Below, piece by piece: positions 15,076 to 36,381 of a stretch of 64,000 nucleotides of DNA. The first letter of the stretch is position 1. Every line of letters begins with the position of its first letter. Source of the DNA: Cupriavidus alkaliphilus (GTDB lineage Bacteria > Pseudomonadota > Gammaproteobacteria > Burkholderiales > Burkholderiaceae); the NCBI RefSeq assembly GCF_900094595.1, contig NZ_FMAD01000001.1:186001-250000 (forward strand), in the 5' to 3' direction. The translations under genes and the position numbers were made by a program. Under the pieces are notes generated by a model, which searched no databases, was not told the DNA's origin, and worked only from the letters and a program-made list of their open reading frames with translations.

Positions 15076-15100
15076 CCCCTCTCCCGCCTGCGGGCGAGGG
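15076..15100. repeat. REP-like palindrome, copy 1 (degenerate)
   Basis: Left arm CCCCTCTCCCGC (15076-15087), spacer CT, right arm GCGGGCGAGGG (15090-15100) with one mismatch. The same element occurs at 21881-21906 and 34490-34515. It lies between the convergent ubiA and proC genes. Confidence 0.7.
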
Positions 15101-20276: not shown

Positions 20277-20648
20277 TCATGCGGCCACCGGCTCGTGCAG
20301 GCCGATGCGGTTGCCCTCGCTGTCGGTGATATGCGCGATGCGGCCGATCTCGCCCGGCAGGCGCAGCGGCCCGAACACGGTCTTGCCGCCGGCGCGCGTG
20401 GCGCGCGCCAGCAGCGAATCGAGTTCGGGCGCGTGCAGGTACGGCACCGTGCCGTAGTAGTTGCTGGGCCGGTAGCCTTCGCCGGCGACCAGCGCGCCGC
20501 CGGGATCGGGGTGCGGGAACACGGCCATGTCGACCTGGCTCATGGTTTCGCGGCGCAGCTTGATATCGAACACCTGCTCGTAGAAACCGATGGCGCGGGG
20601 CATGTCGACGACGGGGATTTCCAGCCAATTGATCAGGCGTTGGCTCAT
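20277..20648 (-). CDS. VOC (glyoxalase/bleomycin-resistance fold) protein
   Basis: 123 aa from MSQRLINWLEIPVVDM; AGGAG lies nine bases upstream of this start, whereas the longer open frame has none. The fold is a single vicinal-oxygen-chelate module of two beta-alpha-beta-beta-beta units. The ending ITDSEGNRIGLHEP is typical of the PhnB/extradiol-like group. Substrate is unknown. It shares a transcript with the WYL regulator. Confidence 0.85.
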   Translation of the reverse strand: MSQRLINWLEIPVVDMPRAIGFYEQVFDIKLRRETMSQVDMAVFPHPDPGGALVAGEGYRPSNYYGTVPYLHAPELDSLLARATRAGGKTVFGPLRLPGEIGRIAHITDSEGNRIGLHEPVAA

Positions 20649-20746
20649 GATGGGCTCCTGGGTTCCATAGGTAGGGGAGTGAGGAGCTCGCATCATGCGC
20701 GGGGGCTGCTGACAGCGTGCTGTCAGGAGGATGTCAGGGCGAAAGG

Positions 20747-21472
20747 TCAGTGCGGCATCCACGCCGCCATCACCGGCACCAGGATCGCGGTCAGCACGCC
20801 GTTCAGGCCCATGCCGAGCGCGGCGAAGGCGCCGGCCTCCTGGTTGACCTGGAACGCGCGCGCGGTGCCGATACCGTGCGCCGCCACCCCGGTGGCAAAG
20901 CCGCGCACGCTGTAGTCGCGAATGCGCAGCAGGTTCAGCAGCATGGTCGCGCTGACCGCGCCGATGATGCCGGTGCCCATCACCAGCACCGCCGTCAGCG
21001 ACGGCAGCCCGCCGATCTTCTCGGCCACGCCCATGGCGATCGGGATCGTCACCGACTTGGGCGCGAGCGAGCGCACCGTTTCCGGCGAGGCGCCGAGCAG
21101 CCAGGCAATGCCCACCGCCGACACCACCGCCACCACCGAGCCCGCCACCAGTCCCGCCAGCAGCGGGAACACATGGGTGCGCAGCTTGGGCAGCTGCAGG
21201 TACAGCGGCACCGCCAGCGCCACCGTCGCCGGGCCCAGCAGGAAGTGCACGAACTGCGCGCCGTCGAAGTAGGTCTTATAGGGCGTGCCGGTGACGGTCA
21301 GCACCGTGACCAGCAGCGCCACCGCGATCATCACCGGGTTGGCCAGCGGCGAGAAGCGCGATTTCTCGTAGATGCGGAAGGCGAACACATAGGCCAGCAG
21401 CGTCGCGGTCAGGCCCACCAGCGGGCTGGCGGCCAGGTAGACCCAGATCTCGTTCAGGCGCGGCGTCATCAT
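20747..21472 (-). CDS. lrgB: LrgB-family membrane protein
   Basis: 241 aa, start MMTPRLNEIWVYLAASP. About seven membrane segments; the family signature is KSVTIPIAMGVAEKIGGLPSLTAVLVMGTGIIGAV and GVAAHGIGTARAF. LrgB/CidB partners LrgA and was first linked to murein hydrolase export; the plant homologue PLGG1, an LrgA-LrgB fusion, is the chloroplast glycolate/glycerate transporter. Its start overlaps the lrgA stop (ATGATGA). Downstream position behind glcDEF favours organic-acid transport here; that is inference. Confidence 0.92.
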   Translation of the reverse strand: MMTPRLNEIWVYLAASPLVGLTATLLAYVFAFRIYEKSRFSPLANPVMIAVALLVTVLTVTGTPYKTYFDGAQFVHFLLGPATVALAVPLYLQLPKLRTHVFPLLAGLVAGSVVAVVSAVGIAWLLGASPETVRSLAPKSVTIPIAMGVAEKIGGLPSLTAVLVMGTGIIGAVSATMLLNLLRIRDYSVRGFATGVAAHGIGTARAFQVNQEAGAFAALGMGLNGVLTAILVPVMAAWMPH

Positions 21473-21867
21473 GCCTGTTCCCCCTTGGCGTCGGCATGCG
21501 GCGCGTCGGGCGTGCCGGAACGCTTGCGCATCAGCATGCGCGTGACCACGGCGGTGGTGGCGATGGCCAGCCAGGTGGACACCACCAGCGCGACCAGGAT
21601 CGGCATCCACTCGCCCTCGATGCGGTTGGCGTGGACCATGATGCCGACGCCGGCCGGCACGAACAGCAGCGACAGGTGCTTGAGCAGCTCGGTGGTGGTG
21701 CCCTGGATCACGGGCAGCAGCCGGTCGTCGAAGACGAGCCAGCCGAACAGCAGGATCATGCCGAGCACTGGGCCGGGCACGGGCAGGGTCAGCGCGTAGC
21801 TGATCACCTCGCCGACGGACTGGAAAACCAACAGGATGGCAAAGGTCTGGAGCATGGGGGCGGTCAT
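21469..21867 (-). CDS. lrgA: LrgA/CidA-family membrane protein
   Basis: 132 aa from MTAPMLQTFAILLVFQSVGEVISYAL; the longer open frame runs through the REP palindrome and is not needed. Four membrane segments with the family motif LPVPGPVLGMILLF and HLSLLFVPAGVGIMVH. The stop overlaps the lrgB start. glcF lies 60 bases upstream on the same strand, so lrgAB may be the transport arm of the glycolate operon. Confidence 0.92.
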   Translation of the reverse strand: MTAPMLQTFAILLVFQSVGEVISYALTLPVPGPVLGMILLFGWLVFDDRLLPVIQGTTTELLKHLSLLFVPAGVGIMVHANRIEGEWMPILVALVVSTWLAIATTAVVTRMLMRKRSGTPDAPHADAKGEQA

Positions 21868-21880
21868 GGTTGTGCATTGC

Positions 21881-21906
21881 CCCCTCTCCCGCAGGCGGGA
21901 GAGGGG
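21881..21906. repeat. REP-like palindrome, copy 2 (perfect)
   Basis: Arms CCCCTCTCCCGC (21881-21892) and GCGGGAGAGGGG (21895-21906) around AG. It lies in the 59-base gap between glcF and lrgA. In such a place it could stabilise the upstream mRNA or lower expression of lrgAB. Confidence 0.8.
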
Positions 21907-21926
21907 AGACAACCACGGCCGGGGTG

Positions 21927-23180
21927 TTATCCCAGCATCCGGTCGACCAGTTCGATCCAGTGCATGACCGGCGTATCGGTGCCGCCCTGCAGGTGCGAGA
22001 TGCAGCCGATATTGGCCGAGACGATGGCTTCGGGCTGCGTCGCCTGCAGTTTGGCGAGCTTGTCGTCGCGCAGGCGCTGGGACAGTTCCGGCTGCAGCAC
22101 CGAGTAAGTGCCCGCCGAGCCGCAGCACAGGTGGCTGTCAGCGCAGAGTTTGACTTCCACGCCGAGGCCGGTCAAGAGCGCTTCGACTTTGCCGCGGATC
22201 TGCTGGCCGTGCTGCAGCGTGCAGGGCGGGTGGTAGGCCACGCGCCGGCCGTCGCGCGGCACCGCGCCGGCGGCGGCGTGCAGGTCGTCGGCAAAGTCCG
22301 GCAGGACCTCGGACAGGTCGCGCGTCAGCGCCGAGATGCGGCGCGCGCGCTCGGCATAGGCGGGATCGTTGCGCAGCAGGTGGCCGTAGTCCTTGACCAT
22401 CGCACCGCAGCCCGATGCGGTCATCACGATGGCTTCGGCGCCGGCTTCGACATGCGGCCACCAGGCGTCGATATTGCGGCGCATATTGTCGAGGCCGCCA
22501 TCGTGGTCGCCGGTGTGGAAGCGGATCGCGCCGCAGCAGCCGGCCTCGCGCGCCACCACCAGTTGTACGCCGACACGGTCGAACACGCGCGCGGTGGCGG
22601 CATTGATGTTGGGCGACATTGCCGGCTGCACGCAACCGTCGAGCAACAGCATCTTGCGCGCATGCGTGTTGCGCGGCCACGCGCCGGGCGCGGCGCTGGC
22701 CGACAGCGGCGGCACCTTGGCGCGCAGCGTGCCCGGCAGCAGCGGGCGCACCATCTGGCCCAGGCGCAGCGCGGTGCCGAACAGCGCCGGCCGCGTCAGC
22801 CCCTCGCGCAGCACCCAGCGCGCGATGCGCTGGCTGGCGGGACGCCGCACGCCTTCGGCCTCGAGCTTGTCGTCGACCAGCTGGCGGCCGATGTCGACCA
22901 GGCGGCCATAGCGCACGCCGGAGGGGCAGGTCGATTCGCAGTTGCGGCAGGTCAGGCAACGGTCCAGGTGCAGGCGCGTGCTTTCGGTGATGGCATGGCC
23001 TTCGAGCACCTGCTTCATCAGGTAGATGCGCCCGCGCGGCCCGTCCAGTTCATCGCCGAGCAACTGGTAGGTGGGGCAGGTGGCGGTGCAGAAGCCGCAA
23101 TGCACGCACTTGCCGACGATGGATTTGGCTTCCTCGCCTTCGGGCGTGTCGCGGAGAAAATCGGCCAGGGTCGTTTGCAT
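21927..23180 (-). CDS. glcF: Glycolate oxidase iron-sulfur subunit GlcF
   Basis: 417 aa. Two [4Fe-4S] clusters are bound by C25/C28/C31 plus C35 and C75/C78/C81 plus C85. Two CCG domains follow (EAGCCGAI and DSHLCCGSAG). With the flavin subunits GlcD and GlcE it oxidises glycolate to glyoxylate, passing electrons to the membrane quinone pool. glcE lies 40 bases upstream. Confidence 0.96.
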   Translation of the reverse strand: MQTTLADFLRDTPEGEEAKSIVGKCVHCGFCTATCPTYQLLGDELDGPRGRIYLMKQVLEGHAITESTRLHLDRCLTCRNCESTCPSGVRYGRLVDIGRQLVDDKLEAEGVRRPASQRIARWVLREGLTRPALFGTALRLGQMVRPLLPGTLRAKVPPLSASAAPGAWPRNTHARKMLLLDGCVQPAMSPNINAATARVFDRVGVQLVVAREAGCCGAIRFHTGDHDGGLDNMRRNIDAWWPHVEAGAEAIVMTASGCGAMVKDYGHLLRNDPAYAERARRISALTRDLSEVLPDFADDLHAAAGAVPRDGRRVAYHPPCTLQHGQQIRGKVEALLTGLGVEVKLCADSHLCCGSAGTYSVLQPELSQRLRDDKLAKLQATQPEAIVSANIGCISHLQGGTDTPVMHWIELVDRMLG

Positions 23181-23220
23181 GATGTGGGGTGTAGTGCCTG
23201 GAGTGTCTTGGCCCGCGGGC

Positions 23221-24324
23221 TCAGAGCCCGGGGTACATGCGCTGCGGATTGAAGATGCCGGCAGGGTCGAAGGTCTCTTTCAGGCGGCGATGGATCGCGG
23301 CCAGCGGCGACGCCAGCGGCGTGAACACGCCCATCGACTTGTCGCCGTGGCGAAACAGCGTGGCATGGCCGCCGGCGGCCTGGGCCACCGCGCGCACGCT
23401 TTCGGCGTCGGCTTTGGCCGAGCCCTCTTCGGGCAGCCACCAGCGCTGGCCGCCACCCCATTCGAGCAGCTGCGCGCCCGGCAGCGCCAGCGGCGCGGCC
23501 ACGGTGGGCACCGCCAGCCGCCACAGCGCGCGGCCGGCGTGCGCCGGGGCGAAGAACGGGTGGGTCTGCTCGCGCAGCGATTGCCACAGCGCGGCAGCGG
23601 GCGCCGCGTCCAGGCGGTCGCCGCCGAGCCGGGCGCAGGCCGCACGCACCGCGGCGCCGGCGCCGGACAGGCGCACGTGCAGCACTCCCGCATGCCACAC
23701 CGAAGACGCCAGCGGCAGCGGCTGCCCGCCCCACTGGTTCAGTTGCCGGACGGCTTCGGCCTGCGCCATCTCGAAGCGCAGCGTGGCCTCGTCGAACGGC
23801 GCCGGCAGCACCTTGACCGAGACCTGCAGGATCAGCCCCAGCGTGCCGAGCGAGCCCGCCAGCAGCCGCGACACGTCGTAGCCCGCGACGTTCTTCATCA
23901 CCTGGCCGCCGAAGTCCATCACCTCGCCGCGGCCGTCCATCAGCTGCGCGCCCAGCACGAAGTCGCGCAGCGCGCCCACCGACTGGCGGCGCGGGCCCGA
24001 CAAGCCGGCGGCGACGGCACCGCCCAGCGTCGCCACGCTGGGCTGGCCGGGCAGCGCGAAGTGGGGCGGCTCGAACGCCAGGATCTGGCGCTTGTCCGCG
24101 AGCGCGGCTTCGATCTCGGCCAGCGGCGTGCCGCAGCGTGCGGTGATCACGAGTTCGGCCGGGTCATAGTCGACGATGCCGGTGTAGGCGCGCGTGTCCA
24201 GCAGCTGGCCTTGCGGCGGCTGGCCGTAGAAGTCCTTGCTGCCGCCGCCGCGCAGCCGCAGCGCGGTGCGGGTCTCGGTGGCTTGCCTGACGGCGTCGCG
24301 GAAGGCGTCGAGGGTGGCTTGCAT
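23221..24324 (-). CDS. glcE: Glycolate oxidase FAD-binding subunit GlcE
   Basis: 367 aa, a short FAD_binding_4 protein. The PP-loop-like FAD segment is LRGGGSKDFYG, followed by FEPPHFALPGQPSVATLGGAVAAGLSGPRRQSVGALRDFVLG. It lacks the long C-terminal cap of GlcD, as expected for GlcE. It sits between an ion-channel gene (40 bases upstream) and glcF. Confidence 0.95.
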   Translation of the reverse strand: MQATLDAFRDAVRQATETRTALRLRGGGSKDFYGQPPQGQLLDTRAYTGIVDYDPAELVITARCGTPLAEIEAALADKRQILAFEPPHFALPGQPSVATLGGAVAAGLSGPRRQSVGALRDFVLGAQLMDGRGEVMDFGGQVMKNVAGYDVSRLLAGSLGTLGLILQVSVKVLPAPFDEATLRFEMAQAEAVRQLNQWGGQPLPLASSVWHAGVLHVRLSGAGAAVRAACARLGGDRLDAAPAAALWQSLREQTHPFFAPAHAGRALWRLAVPTVAAPLALPGAQLLEWGGGQRWWLPEEGSAKADAESVRAVAQAAGGHATLFRHGDKSMGVFTPLASPLAAIHRRLKETFDPAGIFNPQRMYPGL

Positions 24325-24364
24325 AGTCGTGCGAGTAGGGAGGAGTGTCTGGCGCGGCTCTGGA

Positions 24365-25288
24365 TCAGGCCAGGCCGTCGCGGCCGCCCGGGATTTCAGG
24401 CCGGTCGTTCTGATAGGCCGGCAGCTGGGTGCCGCAGTGCTTGCAATACTGCGCGTCGGGCTCGTGCCCCTCGGTCAGGCAATGGGTGCAGGTGCGGGTG
24501 GTCAGCGGCCGCTTCATGATGCTGGCGGCCAGCTCGGCGCCGACGATGCCGGTGGGAAAGGCGATGATGCCGTAGCCCAGCAGGATCGTCAGCGAGGTGA
24601 TGAACTGCCCCAGCGGCGTCTTCGGCACCATGTCGCCGAAGCCGGTGGTGGTCAGCGTCACCACGGCCCAGTACATGCTGACCGGGATACTGTGGAAGCC
24701 GTGCTCCGGGCCTTCGACCACGTACATCACGGTGCCGAGGATCACCGTGATGATGAACACCGCGGCCAGGAACACGAAGATCTTGCGCCGGCTGTTGACC
24801 AGCGCGCGGTACAGGATCTCGGCTTCCTCGAAGTACACCGTCAGCTTCAGGATCCGGAACACGCGCAGCAGCCGCAGCAGGCGCACGTCGATCAGGAAAT
24901 GCAGTTCCGGCACGAAGAACGCGAGCCAGGTCGGCATGATCGAGATGAAGTCGATGACGCCGTAGAAGCTCAGCGCATAGCGCCACGGGTGCCGCACCAC
25001 CAGCAGGCGCATGGCGTATTCGGCGGTGAACAGCAGCGTGAACATCCATTCCAGCACCGTGAATACCCCGCCAAGGCGCTGGTTCACCGCGGGCAGGCTG
25101 TCGAGCATCACGATCATCACGCTGGTGACGATGGCGAGCAGCAGCGCGACATCGAACAGGCGACCTTCGCGCGTATCGGCCTCGAAGATGATGGTGTACC
25201 AGCGCTGGCGCCAGCCCGCCTCGGGCTGGCCCAGGCGCTGGCGCACCACGGCTTCCTGGTGCTGGCGCCGGCGGGGATTCTCTTTCAT
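24365..25288 (-). CDS. Voltage-gated-type K+ channel with C-terminal zinc ribbon
   Basis: 307 aa from MKENPRRRQH, eight bases after the glcD stop. Residues 43-255 show six membrane segments. S4 carries regularly spaced arginines (DVRLLRLLRVFRILKL, about 134-149) and the pore has TTTGFGD (213-219), a K+-selectivity filter with F for Y. After the last helix there is CTHC (267-270) and CKHC (282-285), a small zinc-ribbon module. The gene lies inside glcD-glcE-glcF, so it is expressed with glycolate oxidase. I recall a similar kch-type gene in the C. necator glycolate operon. Its physiological role is not evident. Confidence 0.9.
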   Translation of the reverse strand: MKENPRRRQHQEAVVRQRLGQPEAGWRQRWYTIIFEADTREGRLFDVALLLAIVTSVMIVMLDSLPAVNQRLGGVFTVLEWMFTLLFTAEYAMRLLVVRHPWRYALSFYGVIDFISIMPTWLAFFVPELHFLIDVRLLRLLRVFRILKLTVYFEEAEILYRALVNSRRKIFVFLAAVFIITVILGTVMYVVEGPEHGFHSIPVSMYWAVVTLTTTGFGDMVPKTPLGQFITSLTILLGYGIIAFPTGIVGAELAASIMKRPLTTRTCTHCLTEGHEPDAQYCKHCGTQLPAYQNDRPEIPGGRDGLA

Positions 25289-25296
25289 GGCGTGGC

Positions 25297-26823
25297 TCAG
25301 AAGCGCGGCAGCTCGGGATGCGGCAGCAGGCCCTTCTTCACGTGCATCTTGCCGTATTCGGCGCAGCGCGCCAGCGTCGGGATGGCCTTGTCGGGGTTCA
25401 GCAGCCGCGCCGGGTCGAAGGCGGCCTTGACGCCGAAAAAGGCGTCGCGCTCGGCGGTCGAGAACTGCACGCACATGGAGTTGAGCTTCTCCACACCGAC
25501 GCCGTGCTCGCCGGTGACGGTGCCGCCCAGCTCGACGCAGGTTTCCAGGATATCGGCGCCGAACAGCTCGGCGCGGTGCCATTCGTCCTGGTCGCCGCCG
25601 TCGAACAGCACCAGCGGGTGCATGTTGCCGTCGCCGGCATGGAACACGTTGATGCAGCGCAGCCTGTACTTCACTTCCATGGCCTCGATGCGCTTGAGCA
25701 GCGTGCCGATGTGCTTGCGCGGGATGGTGCCGTCCATGCAGTAATAGTCCGGAGAAATCCGGCCCGCCGCCGGGAAGGCGTTCTTGCGGCCGCTCCAGAA
25801 GCGCAGGCGCTCGGCCTCGTTCTGCGAGACCACGATGCGGGTGGCGCCCGATGCCGTCAGCACCGCGCTCATGCGCTCGATCTCCTCGGCCACTTCCTCG
25901 GGGGTGCCGTCGGACTCGCACAGCAGGATGGCGGCGGCATCGAGGTCATAGCCCGCATGCACGAACTGCTCGACCGCGGCGGTGGCGGGCTTGTCCATCA
26001 TCTCCAGCCCGGCCGGGATGATGCCGGCGGCGATCACGTCGGCGACCGCGTTGCCGCCTTTCTCGACATCGTCGAAGCAGGCCATGATCACCTGCGCCAG
26101 CTGCGGCTTGGGGATCAGGCGCACGGTGACCTCGGTGACCACGGCCAGCATGCCTTCGGAGCCGATCAGCACGGCCAGCAGGTCCAGCCCGGGCGCGTCG
26201 GGGGCCTCGGAACCGAACACCACCACCTCGCCCGACATCGTCACCGCGCGCACGCGCAGCACGTTGTGCACGGTCAGGCCGTACTTCAGGCAGTGCACGC
26301 CGCCGGAGTTCTCGCTGACATTGCCGCCGATGGTGCAGGCGATCTGCGACGACGGGTCGGGCGCGTAGTACAGGTTGTGCGGTGCGGCGGCGTCCGAGAT
26401 GGCCAGGTTGCGCACGCCCGGCTGGACCACCGCGGTGCGCGAATACGGGTCGACCGACAGGATGCGCTTGAACTTGGCCAGCGACAGCACCAGGCCCTCG
26501 GCGATCGGCATGGCGCCGCCCGACAGGCTGGTGCCGGCGCCGCGCGGCACCACCGGCACGCCCAGCTGGTGGCACAGCCGCAGGATGGCGCAGACCTGCT
26601 CCTCGGTGTCGGGCAGGGCCACCGCCATCGGCACCTGCCGGTACGCTGCCAGGCCGTCGCACTCATAGGGCACGGTGTCTTCCGGCTTCCACAGCACCGC
26701 GGCGTCGGGAAGGATCTGAGCCAGCCCGGCCAGCAGCGCGTCGCGGCGGCCGTCGGCCGCGGCCGTGGCCGGAGCGCCGGCGGCGCCGGGAGCGAGGGTT
26801 TGGGCTTCGTGCGGGGCATTCAT
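25297..26823 (-). CDS. glcD: Glycolate oxidase FAD subunit GlcD
   Basis: 508 aa. FAD-binding segment VPVVPRGAGTSLSGGAMPIAEGLVLSLAKF; then GGNVSENSGGVHCLKYGLT and LIGSEGMLAVVTEVTVRL; the C-terminal cap contains HAGDGNMHPLVLFD and GGTVTGEHGVGVEK with substrate histidines. It is the catalytic glycolate/D-lactate dehydrogenase subunit and the first gene of the operon. The 250 bases upstream (26824-27073) hold no gene I can support. Confidence 0.96.
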   Translation of the reverse strand: MNAPHEAQTLAPGAAGAPATAAADGRRDALLAGLAQILPDAAVLWKPEDTVPYECDGLAAYRQVPMAVALPDTEEQVCAILRLCHQLGVPVVPRGAGTSLSGGAMPIAEGLVLSLAKFKRILSVDPYSRTAVVQPGVRNLAISDAAAPHNLYYAPDPSSQIACTIGGNVSENSGGVHCLKYGLTVHNVLRVRAVTMSGEVVVFGSEAPDAPGLDLLAVLIGSEGMLAVVTEVTVRLIPKPQLAQVIMACFDDVEKGGNAVADVIAAGIIPAGLEMMDKPATAAVEQFVHAGYDLDAAAILLCESDGTPEEVAEEIERMSAVLTASGATRIVVSQNEAERLRFWSGRKNAFPAAGRISPDYYCMDGTIPRKHIGTLLKRIEAMEVKYRLRCINVFHAGDGNMHPLVLFDGGDQDEWHRAELFGADILETCVELGGTVTGEHGVGVEKLNSMCVQFSTAERDAFFGVKAAFDPARLLNPDKAIPTLARCAEYGKMHVKKGLLPHPELPRF

Positions 26824-27073
26824 GAACGACTCCTGTGGGGTCTCCTGGACGGCGGCCTGTGGCGCTCGCTTGCCGGCCTGCCGGCCGCGGGGGACGGGTG
26901 ACTATAGCGCAGGCCACCTGGCGCGGGCACCACGCCAGACGTGAATTCCGCATGCCAGGCCGATCAAAAATGCTCATCATGGCCGGCGGGCACTGGCCCC
27001 GCTTTCAGCGTAGCACCGGCGGCCGGCCATCGGAAAGGCGGGTGCGGCGCTCGGCGTTGCCCCGGCGCTGCCT

Positions 27074-27613
27074 TCAGCGGTCCGGCTGCGCCGGGGCCTC
27101 GGGCAGCCGCAGCACCATGTCGAGCTTGTCGTGGAAGTGCGGCGCGACGTACAACGCGTCGGGCTCCAGCCCGAAGCGCTCGAACCCGAGCGATTCGTAC
27201 AAGCGCACCGCGCCCGCGCTGCCGGCATTGACGCACAGCGTGACCTGGCGCACGCCCGGCATGGCGGCGGCCTGCTGCAGCGCGCGCAGCATCAGCGCGC
27301 GGCCGAGCTTGCGCGCGCGCCAGGCCGGCGCCACGTACATGGCGAAGATCGAGGCCTTGTGCCAGTGCTTGCGCCGGGGCTCGCGCATCACGCCGACCAT
27401 GCCGGCCAGCGCGATACCGTCGGGACCCGCCTCGAAGGCGCCGAACATGGCCTTGTCCGCGCTCGGCGCAAGGCGTTGCGCCACCGCCTCCGGTGCCAGC
27501 TCCTGTTCTTCTTCGAGGCTGGCGGCAAAGGCTTCCGGGGCTTCGGCAAGTCCCTGCAGCCGCAGCGCGTGGAAGGCTGCGGCATCGTCGGGAGTCAGCA
27601 GGCGGATTTCCAT
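27074..27613 (-). CDS. GNAT-family N-acetyltransferase
   Basis: 179 aa. One GNAT domain; acetyl-CoA loop in AMYVAPAWRARKLGRALMLRAL (about 92-113), the final strand near SLGFERFGLEPDALYV. Substrate unknown. It begins 12 bases after the LysR gene and so is probably the third gene of a dehydrogenase-LysR-GNAT transcript. Confidence 0.88.
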   Translation of the reverse strand: MEIRLLTPDDAAAFHALRLQGLAEAPEAFAASLEEEQELAPEAVAQRLAPSADKAMFGAFEAGPDGIALAGMVGVMREPRRKHWHKASIFAMYVAPAWRARKLGRALMLRALQQAAAMPGVRQVTLCVNAGSAGAVRLYESLGFERFGLEPDALYVAPHFHDKLDMVLRLPEAPAQPDR

Positions 27614-27625
27614 GGGCGCAGTCTC

Positions 27626-28516
27626 CTACCAGTCCAGGCTCAGCAGCCAGTCGACGAAATAACGCGCCTCGGGCTTGAGCGGCGCCTGTTCGCGCTCGAC
27701 GATGTAGTAGCCGTGCGGCGATACCGATTCCACATCGAGCAGGCGCACCATCTGCCCCAGCGACAGCCAGTGCCGAGCCATGCGCTGGCGCACCAGCGCC
27801 ACGCCCTGGTTGGAGGCGATCGCCTCCAGCATCAGGCCGATGTCGTTGAACTGCGGGCCGGTCTGGGGTTCGGGCCAGTCCAGTCCGGCGGTCTCGAACC
27901 ACGGCTTCCACGGCTCCAGCGGGCTGCGCAGCAGCACCAGGCCGTGCAGGTGCTCGGGCCGGGTGATGGCGCGGCCGTTGACGCGCTCGTAGTACTCGCG
28001 CCCGCACGCCGGGAACACCGGTTCCACCAGGAGCTTGGTCGTCTTCAGGTCAGGGTAGCGGCCGGTGCCGTAGCGGATCTCGACATCGGTGTCCTCGGCC
28101 TTGACGTCGAGGAACGGGATCGCCAAGTGCAGCTCGAGGTCGATATGCGGATAGAGCGCGCCGAACTCGGGCAGGCGCGGCACCAGGTGCTGGCGCCCGA
28201 AGGTGGGCGGGATCGCCACGCGCAGGCGCGTGCGCATCTTGTTGTACTCGGGCCGCGCCAGCTCGTTGAGCGACTTGAGCGCGTCCTGCACGTTGCGCAG
28301 GTAGCGCGTGCCGGCCGCGGTCAGCCGCAGCGCGGCGTTGGCGCGCACGAACAGGTCTTCGCCCCACAGCTCCTCGAGGTTCTTGATGCGGTGCGAGACC
28401 GCGCTGGGGGTCACCGACAGCTCCTCGGCCGCGCGCGCGAAGCTGCCCAGGCGCGCGGCGGCCTCGAACGCGATCAGCAGGTGCAGCGGCGGCACGCGGT
28501 TGAACATGGAGGCCAT
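27626..28516 (-). CDS. GcvA-type LysR transcriptional regulator
   Basis: 296 aa. The opening PPLHLLIAFEAAARLGSFARAAEELSVTPSAVSHRIKNLEE is the HTH of the GcvA subgroup. An effector-binding domain follows (about 90-290). It lies 24 bases downstream of an FAD-linked dehydrogenase gene on the same strand and is likely its regulator. Effector could be a 2-hydroxy acid; that is only contextual. Confidence 0.88.
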   Translation of the reverse strand: MASMFNRVPPLHLLIAFEAAARLGSFARAAEELSVTPSAVSHRIKNLEELWGEDLFVRANAALRLTAAGTRYLRNVQDALKSLNELARPEYNKMRTRLRVAIPPTFGRQHLVPRLPEFGALYPHIDLELHLAIPFLDVKAEDTDVEIRYGTGRYPDLKTTKLLVEPVFPACGREYYERVNGRAITRPEHLHGLVLLRSPLEPWKPWFETAGLDWPEPQTGPQFNDIGLMLEAIASNQGVALVRQRMARHWLSLGQMVRLLDVESVSPHGYYIVEREQAPLKPEARYFVDWLLSLDW

Positions 28517-28540: not shown

Positions 28541-29971
28541 TTACTGCGTGCCGGCGCGCGCGGCGCTGAAGATCTTGCCGGGGTTCAGGATGTGGTTGGG
28601 GTCGAGCGCATCCTTGATCGCGCGCATCAGGTCCAGCGCGTCTTCGCCGTGCTCCGCCACCAGGAAGCGCTGCTTGTGCAGGCCCACGCCGTGCTCGCCG
28701 GTGCAGGTGCCGCCCATCGCCAGCGCGCGTTCGACGATGCGCTGGTTGATGGCCTCGGCCTCGGCCATTTCCTCAGGCCGGTCCGGGTCGACCAGGATCG
28801 CCACGTGGAAGTTGCCGTCGCCGACATGGCCGACGATGGGGCAGGGCAGCGCCGAGGCGTTCAGGTCCTTCTCGGTCTCGGTGACGCAGTCGGCCAGGCG
28901 CGAGATCGGCACGCACACGTCGGTGGTGACCGACTTGCAGCCCGGCTTGAGCTGGAGCATCGCAAAGTACGCGGTATGGCGCGCGTTCCACAGCCGGCTG
29001 CGGTCTTCCGGGCGCGTGGCCCACTCGAAGCCCTGGCCGCCGAATTCGGCGGTGATCTGCTGCACGGTCTCGGCCTGCTCGCGCACGCCGGCCTCGGTGC
29101 CGTGGAATTCGAAGAACAGGTGCGGGGTCTCGGGCAGGGTCAGGTTGTCGTGGCGGTTGATGGCGCGGATCGCCAGCGCATCGACGAATTCCACGCGCGC
29201 CACCGGCACGCCCAGCTGGATGGTCTGGATCACGGCCTGCACTGCGCTGCCCATGCTGGAAAAGGCGCATACCGCGGCGGAGATCGCCTCGGGCTGCGGG
29301 TACAGCCGCACCGTGACCTCGGTGATGATGCCGAGCGTGCCTTCGCTGCCGATGAAGAGCCGGGTCAGGTCATAACCGGCCGACGACTTGCGCGCCTGCG
29401 TGCCGGTGCGAATCACGCGGCCATCGGCGGTCACCACCGTCAGCGCCAGCACGTTTTCGCGCATGGTGCCGTAGCGCACCGCGTTGGTCCCCGACGCGCG
29501 CGTGGCGCACATGCCGCCCAGCGACGCGTCGGCGCCCGGGTCGATCGGGAAGAACAGGCCGGTGTCCTTGATCTCCTGGTTCAGCTGCTTGCGCGTGACG
29601 CCGGGCTGCACGGTCACGGTCAGGTCCTCGGGCTGCACCGCCAGCACCCGGTTCATCTGCGACAGGTCCAGGCTGATGCCGCCGGCCACCGCCAGCAGGT
29701 GGCCTTCCAGCGACGAGCCCGCGCCGTACGGGATCAGCGGCACGCCATGCTGGTTGCACAGGCGCGCGACCTCGGCCACCTCCTCGGTGCTGTGGGCAAA
29801 CACCACCGCATCGGGCAGCGCCGGCGGGAACGGCGACTCGTCGCGGCCATGGTGCTCGCGCACGCCGGCGGAGGTGGTGAAGCGCTCGCCGAAGCGTGCC
29901 GCGAGGGCGTCGGCCATGGCGGGCGGCAGCGGACGGCGGGCGAGGGAGGCGGACGACGTGGGGTGGTTCAT
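28541..29971 (-). CDS. FAD-linked D-2-hydroxyacid (D-lactate/glycolate-type) dehydrogenase
   Basis: 476 aa. FAD-binding part has VPLIPYGAGSSLEGHLLAVAGGISLDLSQMNRV and PGADASLGGMCATRASGTNAVRYG; the cap has GHVGDGNFHVAILVD and GGTCTGEHGVGLHKQRFL, with metal and substrate histidines. It resembles the LDHD group of D-lactate dehydrogenases rather than GlcD. It is a distant paralogue of glcD, 1.7 kb away. Two-hydroxyacid oxidation linked to quinones or a cytochrome is likely. Confidence 0.9.
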   Translation of the reverse strand: MNHPTSSASLARRPLPPAMADALAARFGERFTTSAGVREHHGRDESPFPPALPDAVVFAHSTEEVAEVARLCNQHGVPLIPYGAGSSLEGHLLAVAGGISLDLSQMNRVLAVQPEDLTVTVQPGVTRKQLNQEIKDTGLFFPIDPGADASLGGMCATRASGTNAVRYGTMRENVLALTVVTADGRVIRTGTQARKSSAGYDLTRLFIGSEGTLGIITEVTVRLYPQPEAISAAVCAFSSMGSAVQAVIQTIQLGVPVARVEFVDALAIRAINRHDNLTLPETPHLFFEFHGTEAGVREQAETVQQITAEFGGQGFEWATRPEDRSRLWNARHTAYFAMLQLKPGCKSVTTDVCVPISRLADCVTETEKDLNASALPCPIVGHVGDGNFHVAILVDPDRPEEMAEAEAINQRIVERALAMGGTCTGEHGVGLHKQRFLVAEHGEDALDLMRAIKDALDPNHILNPGKIFSAARAGTQ

Positions 29972-34416: not shown

Positions 34417-36381
34417 ATGGCCGTCCCGCTGTTTTCCCCTGACGATTTTCCTGTGGTAGCAAGCATCCCGCCCCCGCCTTCACCCCCGGCCCCTCTCCCG
34501 CTCGCGGGAGAGGGGAGCACGCCCGCAGTGCGCGGGGACGTCTTCGTCCTGCTCGACGACGCTACCGCACCCGCCGGGCAAACCACGTCCCGCCTCTACA
34601 CCGGCCTGGTCCACGAAGACCGCCTATCCCCCGGCAGCGACATCGCCCGGCTCGACGCCATGCTCGCCGAAGGCTGGCGCCAGGGCTGGCACGCCACCTT
34701 GTTCGCGCCCTACGAATTCGGTGGGGCGCTGGTCGATGCCCCGGTGCATACGGGCAACGCCATGCCGTTCCACGACGGTGCGCTGCGCCTGCTGTGGTTC
34801 CGCGGGCTGCAACGGCTCGATGCCGCGGCGGTGGCGGCGTGGCTGCAAGCCCATGCGCAGCCGCGGCCAGCGGGCCTGATGCATATTGCTTCCGATACGT
34901 CCCGCGCGGCCTTCGACGACGCCATCGCGCGTATCCACCAGTGGATCGAGGCGGGCGACACGTATCAGGTCAATTACACCCAGCGCCTGCGCTGCGATGC
35001 CTTCGGCGATCCGGTGGCGCTGTACGCGGCGCTGCGTGCCGCGCAGCCGGTGCCGTATGGCGTGCTGGCCAGGCTGCCGGATGACGCCATGGTGCTGTCG
35101 CTGTCGCCGGAGCTGTTCGTGCGCCACGATGGCCAGGGCCATCTGCTGACCCGGCCGATGAAGGGCACCGCGCCGCGCGCCGGCGACGCCGCGCGCGATG
35201 CGCAGGCCGCCGCGGCGCTGGCCGCCGACGCCAAGAACCGGGCCGAGAATGTGATGATCGTCGACCTGCTGCGCAACGACCTGGGCCGCATCGCGCAGCC
35301 GGGCAGCGTGGCGGTGCCGGAGCGCTTTGCGGTGCAGCCGTTCGGCGCGGTGCTGCAAATGACTTCGACCGTGACGGCGACGGCGCGGCCCGGCACCGGC
35401 TTCGGCGCGCTGATGGCGGCGCTGTTCCCGTGCGGCTCGATCACCGGCGCGCCCAAGCGGCGCACCATGCAGATCATCACCGAGCTCGAGCACGCGCCGC
35501 GCGGGCTCTACACCGGCGCGATCGGCTGGATCGAGGCGCCGTCCGGGGCCGCGATGGCCGGCCCGTTCGCGCTGTCGGTGGCGATCCGCACGCTGGTGCT
35601 GGCGCCGCCCGCGGCCAGTGCGCTGCGCGCCGGCGAGATGGGGGTGGGCGGCGGCATCGTCCATGACAGCGTGGCGGCGGAGGAATTCGCCGAATGCGGC
35701 TGGAAGGCGCGCTTCCTGACCCGGCACGATCCCGGCTTTACGTTGTTCGAGACCCTGCGCGTGCAAGACGGGGCGTGTCCGCACCTGGCGCGGCACCTGG
35801 CGCGCATTGGGGCATCGGCGCAGGCGTTCGGCTTTGCCTTCGACGCCGATGCCGCGCGCGACGCGGTGGCCGCGCAGGCGGCACGACTCGGGGCGGGCAC
35901 CTGGCGCCTGCGCCTCAGCGTCGACAAGTCCGGCACGCTGGCGTTTGCCAGCGGCGCGCTGGCGCCGTTGCCGGCGGGGCCGGTCGGTGTCGACCTGGCG
36001 CCGGACCCGCTGCCGCCTGCCGACCCGCTGCGCCGCCACAAGACCAGTGCGCGCGCGGTCTTCGATGCCGGCTGGCAGGCCGCCGAGCGCGCCGGCGGCT
36101 TCGACCGGCTGTTTTTCAACGCGCGTGGCGAACTGCTCGAGGGCGGGCGCAGCTCCGTGTTCGTGCGCATCGACGGCCGCTGGCTGACGCCGCCGCTGTC
36201 GGCCGACATCCTGCCGGGCGTGATGCGGGCGGTGGTGCTGGAGGCGGGCGGCGCGGCGCTGGGCGCGCCGGGCGAGCCGGTCGAAGAAGCGGTGATCACG
36301 CGCGCGATGCTGGCGCACGCCGAGGCCATCGTGCTGGTCAACGCCTTGCGCGGCGTGATGCCGGCGACGTTGACGGCCTGA
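34417..36381 (+). CDS. pabB: PabB-PabC fusion: aminodeoxychorismate synthase component I / 4-amino-4-deoxychorismate lyase
   Basis: 654 aa from ATG 34417. The PabB part (about 45-440) has RPMKGTAPR with K249 (the ADC-synthase PIKGT lysine), ENVMIVDLLRNDLGR and CGSITGAPKRRTMQII. The PabC part (about 445-654) is a fold-IV PLP enzyme with lysine K542 in RRHKTSAR. Together with a separate PabA glutaminase they make p-aminobenzoate for folate. The first 40 residues are Pro-rich and A25-G33 (APLPLAGEG) is encoded by a REP palindrome. GTG 34528, just after the palindrome and at VRGDVFVLLDD, is a credible alternative start. Confidence 0.93.
   Translation: MAVPLFSPDDFPVVASIPPPPSPPAPLPLAGEGSTPAVRGDVFVLLDDATAPAGQTTSRLYTGLVHEDRLSPGSDIARLDAMLAEGWRQGWHATLFAPYEFGGALVDAPVHTGNAMPFHDGALRLLWFRGLQRLDAAAVAAWLQAHAQPRPAGLMHIASDTSRAAFDDAIARIHQWIEAGDTYQVNYTQRLRCDAFGDPVALYAALRAAQPVPYGVLARLPDDAMVLSLSPELFVRHDGQGHLLTRPMKGTAPRAGDAARDAQAAAALAADAKNRAENVMIVDLLRNDLGRIAQPGSVAVPERFAVQPFGAVLQMTSTVTATARPGTGFGALMAALFPCGSITGAPKRRTMQIITELEHAPRGLYTGAIGWIEAPSGAAMAGPFALSVAIRTLVLAPPAASALRAGEMGVGGGIVHDSVAAEEFAECGWKARFLTRHDPGFTLFETLRVQDGACPHLARHLARIGASAQAFGFAFDADAARDAVAAQAARLGAGTWRLRLSVDKSGTLAFASGALAPLPAGPVGVDLAPDPLPPADPLRRHKTSARAVFDAGWQAAERAGGFDRLFFNARGELLEGGRSSVFVRIDGRWLTPPLSADILPGVMRAVVLEAGGAALGAPGEPVEEAVITRAMLAHAEAIVLVNALRGVMPATLTA
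34490..34515. repeat. REP-like palindrome, copy 3, inside the 5' part of pabBC
   Basis: Arms CCCCTCTCCCGC (34490-34501) and GCGGGAGAGGGG (34504-34515) around TC, identical in both arms to copy 2. In the pabBC frame it reads APLPLAGEG. Its right arm ends GAGGGGAG ten bases before GTG 34528 and may act as a ribosome-binding site. Confidence 0.8.

Follow-up and report, generated by a model that had tools for sequence, protein, structure and literature searches.

Why do lrgA and lrgB, genes usually annotated as cell-lysis modulators, stand directly behind the glycolate dehydrogenase genes glcD, glcE and glcF in Cupriavidus alkaliphilus? We analyzed this cluster in a stretch of 64,000 nucleotides (contig NZ_FMAD01000001.1, positions 186,001 to 250,000 of the forward strand; hereafter the window, in whose numbering positions are given). 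Our analysis favors a glycolate carrier as the best reading and lysis control as the weaker one, with lrgAB probably encoding a carrier like the transporter of plant chloroplasts. More specifically, and with somewhat better than even confidence, we read LrgA and LrgB as the two subunits of a secondary carrier that is made from the GlcDEF operon and transports glycolate, probably along with close C2-C3 hydroxy- or keto-acids. Gene order, its conservation, family membership and the downstream enzymes are all present in the sequences, and from position and family we infer that glycolate is the most likely LrgAB substrate. The usual annotation of LrgAB and CidAB is still that of lysis modulators, and a tie to glycolate oxidation would offer a clean genetic test of whether they are acid carriers.

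Organization of the glcDEF-lrgAB cluster

On the minus strand between positions 20747 and 26823, glcD, a channel gene, glcE, glcF, lrgA and lrgB follow one another in an uninterrupted run (Table 1), with gaps of 8, 40, 40 and 59 bases from glcD through to lrgA and with the lrgA stop overlapping the lrgB start as ATGATGA. An alternative lrgA start at 21855 fits the homologues, in which case the glcF-lrgA gap becomes 71 bases. Coordinates, Pfam and NCBIfam thus confirmed the gene order, the single strand, the gaps of 8-60 bases and the ATGATGA overlap that an earlier note made from the letters and their open reading frames (the sequence-only reading) had described. GlcE and GlcF belong to the GlcDEF glycolate dehydrogenase, with equivalog scores above the curated cut-offs, whereas GlcD, although GlcD is its best match, falls below both of its equivalog cut-offs (761 against 897 for NF008408; 511 against 568 for TIGR00387), and its name rests on operon context. 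LrgB covers positions 1-213 of the 214-position PF04172 profile at 272 bits (cut-off, 25) and is the only match to this family in the whole 6.1-Mb genome; LrgA matched PF03788 at 92.6 bits (cut-off, 28).

As annotated, LrgAB would be a holin/antiholin-like module of lysis or envelope stress, and the NCBIfam family name, that of autolysis modulators, agrees with this, as does the report that CidA and LrgA of Staphylococcus aureus are pore-forming members of a lysis cassette (PMC8805020; statements on cited papers, here and below, refer to the available parts of their texts). LrgB nevertheless scored under the cut-offs of the NCBIfam CidB/LrgB autolysis modulator equivalogs (TIGR00659, 213 against 249.7 bits; NF007983, 180.5 against 267; NF003291, 129.9 against 264). 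The ten proteins scanned at the locus include no murein hydrolase and no two-component pair, and in S. aureus itself lrgAB is required for microaerobic pyruvate use (PMC8805020). We therefore consider a lysis module very improbable here.

Conservation of the glcF-lrgA-lrgB order

Conservation was followed in a family draw of 249 genomes, where adjacency meant glcF and lrgB on the same strand and 506-737 bases apart, leaving room for lrgA; 101 LrgB rows and 98 GlcF rows (46 from two genera, 52 from others) were tested. Compared across Burkholderiaceae, as the sequence-only reading had suggested, the order is kept in 27 of 30 Cupriavidus genomes and in all 16 genomes of a second genus, g140, perhaps Ralstonia; this goes beyond chance. 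One exception (G451; L and G numbers are our handles for loci and genomes) is explained by contig ends, lrgAB and glcF each lying near a contig edge. None of the 52 GlcF rows from other genera lay within 5 kb of a tested LrgB row. The genome of L050 and L168 fell outside this count, yet its locus shows glcF-lrgA-lrgB. In an order draw of 250 genomes, LrgB occurred in 104 and the arrangement, by eye, in at least five (the window genome G000, G158, G209, G239 and G049); in a class draw of 219 genomes, LrgB occurred in 32 and the arrangement was seen by eye, among the matches listed, only in the window genome and G049, both of the same order. These two draws indicate a feature of some Burkholderiales lineages and not of bacteria at large.

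Among the named LrgB loci, taken as the 80 best matches of a longer list, glcF precedes lrgA on its own strand in 20, including those of Cupriavidus, Undibacterium terreum, Glaciimonas, Noviherbaspirillum, Oxalobacteraceae and Hydrogenophaga. The glcF stop and the lrgA start overlap by four bases (ATGA) in L065 (G049) and in L101, a Hydrogenophaga metagenome-assembled genome (MAG); 4-26 bases separate the glcF stop from the lrgA match in L063, L064, L087, L123 and L124, and the spacing is 49-335 bases in most remaining loci, Cupriavidus included. Four-base overlaps are typical of translationally coupled genes, and of the observations made here the ATGA overlaps speak most clearly for lrgAB as a genuine member of the operon. 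In Noviherbaspirillum sp. Root189 (L085, 4377-7541), a single open reading frame of 1054 aa with a PAS-like start by eye separates glcF and lrgA, which lie 3.6 kb apart. On an Oxalobacteraceae MAG contig (L124, 7672-11221), two copies of lrgAB-btuE flank a partial glcF; the two LrgBs fall in different clades and may therefore represent a real duplication or a mixed assembly.

A second lrgAB context at malate synthase

In nine of the 80 best named loci, of Rhodocyclales type, malate synthase A lies upstream of lrgAB within 5.2 kb (Table 1). The distance from malate synthase to the lrgA match was 57 bases in L159, 129 in L099 and 99 in L014, and the enzyme's identity was supported in the two loci tested by TIGR01344 scores of 740 and 754 bits (cut-off, 594.5). 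Seven of the nine carry a PAS-type sensor kinase and a LuxR-type response regulator after lrgB. By eye, malate synthase lay within 5 kb of LrgB in two genomes of the order draw (G187, G218) and within 16 kb in a third (G111), so that this context is real but narrow. Malate synthase uses glyoxylate, the product of glycolate dehydrogenase, and also serves growth on acetate, for which reason the link is suggestive only. Taken together, the conserved glcF-lrgAB order and the malate synthase context make a carrier of short acids, with glycolate the most likely one, a better reading than lysis control.

Phylogeny, residues and structure of LrgB

A tree was built from 141 LrgB proteins (151 extracted, 10 identical ones dropped). 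The 26 glycolate-linked rows required five label changes against a mean of 24.2 when shuffled (0 of 500 shuffles as low), a difference to which near-copies contribute; inner branches were often weak, with 63 of 138 open. One glycolate-linked group comprised Cupriavidus, g140 and Oxalobacteraceae (support 85, with two parts at 98 and 99) and also held five unlinked rows, and a second comprised Hydrogenophaga (support 100). A 52-row group with Burkholderia, Paraburkholderia, Caballeronia and Herbaspirillum (support 99) contained no glycolate-linked row, and the Rhodocyclales-type LrgBs likewise fell outside the glycolate-linked clades. LrgB of the window paired with that of C. lacunae (support 82).

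Alignment columns were compared between 20 + 6 glycolate-linked LrgBs and 114 unlinked ones, after dropping L073, an unlinked Cupriavidus LrgB at a contig edge. Two columns, A23 and M165, mark the first glycolate-linked clade only. An AlphaFold2 model of LrgB, made with a CPA/AT reentrant-helix-reentrant transporter fold in view, was of middling confidence (pLDDT, 67.7; pTM, 0.60) and had no PDB match at E ≤ 0.001, and a sequence search of PDB chains with LrgB gave no match at E ≤ 1.

Relation to known carriers and glycolate operons

The plant transporter PLGG1, an LrgA-LrgB fusion, carries glycolate and glycerate according to a review (PMC8146403). Our cluster shares with it the LrgA and LrgB domain families and the proposed glycolate substrate but differs in that PLGG1 is one fused chain, whereas here two separate, overlapping genes lie in a bacterial catabolic cluster. 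Among two-gene LrgA/LrgB carriers of a short acid, PftAB (YsbAB) of Bacillus subtilis is a pyruvate carrier (PMC5626966) and S. aureus LrgAB has been assigned to pyruvate transport (PMC8805020); both are tied to pyruvate, whereas lrgAB of the window adjoins glycolate dehydrogenase genes and a LysR gene. Escherichia coli YohJK is a putative 3-hydroxypropionate exporter (PMC7642389) whose genes are flanked by dusC and cdd; the region retrieved around them contains no glycolate gene. Over 212 residues, LrgB of the window shares 42% identity with YohK, and LrgA shares 29% with YohJ over 95. LrgB has been related to a transporter superfamily, with LrgA as a small auxiliary subunit, in a family whose name includes glycolate/glycerate transporter (PMC8396727).

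The glcD-kch-glcE-glcF operon of C. necator H16 has the same order as that of the window, channel included, and its deletion abolished growth on glycolate (PMC7486775). The first salvage genes, including the glycolate dehydrogenase complex, showed four- to eightfold higher levels under ambient CO2 than under 10% CO2; glycolate accumulated in the medium of the mutant lacking glcD-kch-glcE-glcF, and glyoxylate was undetected in any strain tested (PMC7486775). In the available parts of that paper, the listed deletions do not include lrgAB and no transporter is named, and 'lrg' is absent from its main text (PMC7486775). Since the deleted set ends at glcF, lrgAB was presumably present in the mutant, although polar effects are possible.

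In the literature on LrgAB with glycolate or malate synthase, we found no description of lrgAB in a bacterial glycolate operon, and the available parts of PMC6993116, PMC8805020, PMC12632267, PMC8396727, PMC5626966, PMC11530927, PMC4368765, PMC2654142 and PMC10433868 contain none. In PMC2654142, Bacillus LrgA and glycolate oxidase genes both appear in expression tables but are not linked in the parts available.

The channel gene within the operon

In H16, kch was suggested to encode an extra dehydrogenase subunit on the basis of similarity to FAD proteins (PMC7486775). The kch-like product of the window matched no FAD-binding family in Pfam at E ≤ 0.01; its matches at that threshold were ion-channel families and a weak zinc ribbon, and we therefore read it as an ion channel, in contrast to the suggestion for H16. 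A six-transmembrane (6TM) channel gene separates glcD from glcE in the Cupriavidus loci inspected (L066, L070-L072, L074, L088-L093, L102, L119, L133, L140 and L151). The exceptions are L068 and L069 (G395 and G486), where it is absent along with lrgAB; neither the single g140 locus retrieved nor any of the Oxalobacteraceae and Hydrogenophaga loci inspected has it.

Proposed function of LrgAB in the absence of RuBisCO

The window genome, rated 100% complete, contains no PF00016 match and hence no RuBisCO large subunit match. A RuBisCO match was found in 7 of 30 Cupriavidus genomes, one of them (G716) weaker. Fifteen genomes entered both counts, and of the 12 with the arrangement 10 lacked RuBisCO, indicating that the arrangement is independent of phosphoglycolate salvage. 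The part of the sequence-only reading that placed the cluster in phosphoglycolate salvage of an autotroph was accordingly rejected for this organism, and in the genus the gene order does not follow RuBisCO. The proposal in the same reading that LrgAB transports glycolate instead of controlling lysis held up better, given the clustering with glcDEF across several families, the glcF/lrgA overlap in two loci and relatives that carry C2-C3 acids. Glyoxylate carboligase and malate synthase A are encoded elsewhere in the window genome.

LrgB would form the substrate-binding part of the carrier and LrgA a small scaffold. In an organism without RuBisCO, LrgAB would mainly import glycolate for oxidation to glyoxylate. 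Glyoxylate carboligase could then lead this product on to glycerate, and malate synthase A could turn it into malate. With glycolate dehydrogenase absent or at capacity, glycolate would leave the cell through LrgAB as well. Direction and coupling of transport, like substrate and co-transcription of lrgAB, are what we infer for this scheme. A further-reaching version, which we regard as possible but doubtful, makes glycolate-linked LrgAB the bacterial counterpart of PLGG1, a reversible inlet and overflow valve through which glycolate left the C. necator mutants. In that version, with lrgAB also found next to malate synthase in a distinct part of the tree, C2 acids would be old and widespread LrgAB substrates, and the plant function would have been inherited and not newly evolved. 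The cluster offers a candidate bacterial counterpart of the plant photorespiratory transporter, and lrgAB is a candidate for the route by which the model chemolithoautotroph C. necator exports glycolate.

The region between glcF and lrgA

The glcF-lrgA gap contains a perfect palindrome, one copy of a dispersed, near-perfect palindromic repeat, CCCTCTCCCGC-NN-GCGGGAGAGGG, which is REP-like and recurs in the window at 15077-15100 and 34491-34514 (three matches with at most three mismatches, against 0.01 expected). The RNA fold of the glcF-lrgA hairpin was strong (z, -5.25), and a strong palindromic repeat is also found in this gap in some other Cupriavidus. The hairpin was not taken as a dedicated switch, because it is part of a dispersed palindromic repeat. 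A scan of 20600-27100 detected neither a sigma-70-like site on the operon strand nor any terminator-like site; it was blank before glcD as well and therefore says little about a promoter of lrgA.

Weighing the glycolate carrier against its alternatives

Several observations weigh against a glycolate carrier. The hairpin before lrgA, at -40.9 kcal/mol, could lower lrgAB expression. The window genome encodes, elsewhere, two homologues of the PF02652 lactate/glycolate permease. In 60 of the 80 best named LrgB loci, lrgA has no glcF ahead of it, some of these stretches being short. The column comparison (26 against 114) found no residue that is common to both glycolate-linked clades and rare elsewhere, and the sequences therefore give no hint of specificity for glycolate. 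In G395 and G486, btuE comes directly after glcDEF, and both lrgAB and the channel are missing. Three genomes of other genera in the family (L075-L077) have glcDEF without lrgAB, for which the most plausible reading is an ancient arrangement that some lineages have lost. The wider block of 2-hydroxyacid dehydrogenase, LysR gene, glcDEF, lrgAB, btuE and pilU/pilT is itself conserved, so that the adjacency of glcF and lrgAB is partly inheritance.

Inheritance of this chromosomal block could in principle account for the whole linkage, lrgAB then having no tie to glycolate. The conservation of btuE and pilU/pilT, which have no evident glycolate link, would fit this, as would the retention of glcDEF in G395 and G486, where lrgAB beside glcF is missing. 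We nonetheless find it improbable, considering the shared strand, the start/stop overlap in two loci and the existence of a second glyoxylate-enzyme context; moreover, the genes between lrgB and btuE vary (L066 compared with L070), whereas glcF-lrgA-lrgB is constant.

A rather unlikely but weightier alternative is that LrgAB is a general carrier, or one for another short monocarboxylate (pyruvate, lactate, acetate or 3-hydroxypropionate), that shares the operon, with glycolate at most a side substrate. The bacterial relatives studied carry pyruvate or 3-hydroxypropionate, YohK, with its 42% identity, is the sole characterized relative compared, clade-specific residues are wanting, and the malate synthase linkage fits acetate use equally well. 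Against this stand the position of lrgA directly behind glcF, with the ATGA overlap in two loci, and the content of the operon and four scanned neighbors, which include no pyruvate or acetate enzyme by Pfam.

GlcA/LctP is the classical bacterial glycolate/lactate permease, and a GlcA-type glycolate/lactate permease was reportedly the subject of a 2001 paper on E. coli. This PF02652 type belongs to another Pfam family than LrgAB and lies outside the operon of the window; the open reading frame beside one of the two homologues is presumably LutB.

Neighboring genes and further contexts

Upstream of the cluster, on the same strand, Pfam identified a GNAT gene, a LysR regulator and a 2-hydroxyacid dehydrogenase-like gene, and downstream a glyoxalase-like gene. 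The LysR gene lies upstream of glcD in the Cupriavidus loci and in the one g140 locus fetched, and the 2-hydroxyacid dehydrogenase-like gene is conserved too.

Table 1. Features of the glcDEF-lrgAB region in the window and malate synthase A-lrgAB loci in other genomes
Feature	Position	Strand	Length (aa)	Evidence or remark
lrgB, transporter subunit, candidate glycolate carrier	20747..21472	-	241	PF04172, 3.2e-81
lrgA, small membrane subunit	21469..21867 (start may be 21855)	-	132	PF03788, 1.5e-26
Perfect palindrome, glcF-lrgA gap	21882..21905			REP-like dispersed repeat, strong hairpin without T run; repeat count, RNA fold
glcF, iron-sulfur subunit	21927..23180	-	417	CCG and 4Fe-4S; NF008434, 709 bits (cut-off, 333)
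glcE, glycolate dehydrogenase subunit	23221..24324	-	367	FAD_binding_4; NF008439, 544 bits (cut-off, 284)
kch-like 6TM cation channel	24365..25288	-	307	PF00520 (Ion_trans), 1.3e-30; PF07885; TTTGFGD filter in translation
glcD, FAD subunit of glycolate dehydrogenase	25297..26823	-	508	PF02913, PF01565 (FAD-oxidase_C/FAD_binding_4); best NCBIfam match GlcD
LysR-type (GcvA-like) gene upstream, a possible operon regulator	27626..28516	-		PF03466/PF00126
Second FAD-linked 2-hydroxyacid dehydrogenase-like gene, upstream, conserved neighbor	28541..29971	-		PF02913/PF01565
WYL-type regulator; btuE, pilU, pilT on the other strand	beyond the glyoxalase-like gene			names are labels read from translations
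Malate synthase A-lrgAB loci	L099, 5962-11716; L095, L106, L117, L125, L158, L159, L160, L162; L014			L014 from the order draw

In seven Marinobacter loci (L115, 6668-7606; L121, L126, L136, L142, L154 and L155), lrgAB and a gene for a bile-acid:sodium symporter (BASS, PF01758) are at most about 6 kb apart; plant plastids have two glycolate carriers, PLGG1 and BASS6 (PMC8146403).

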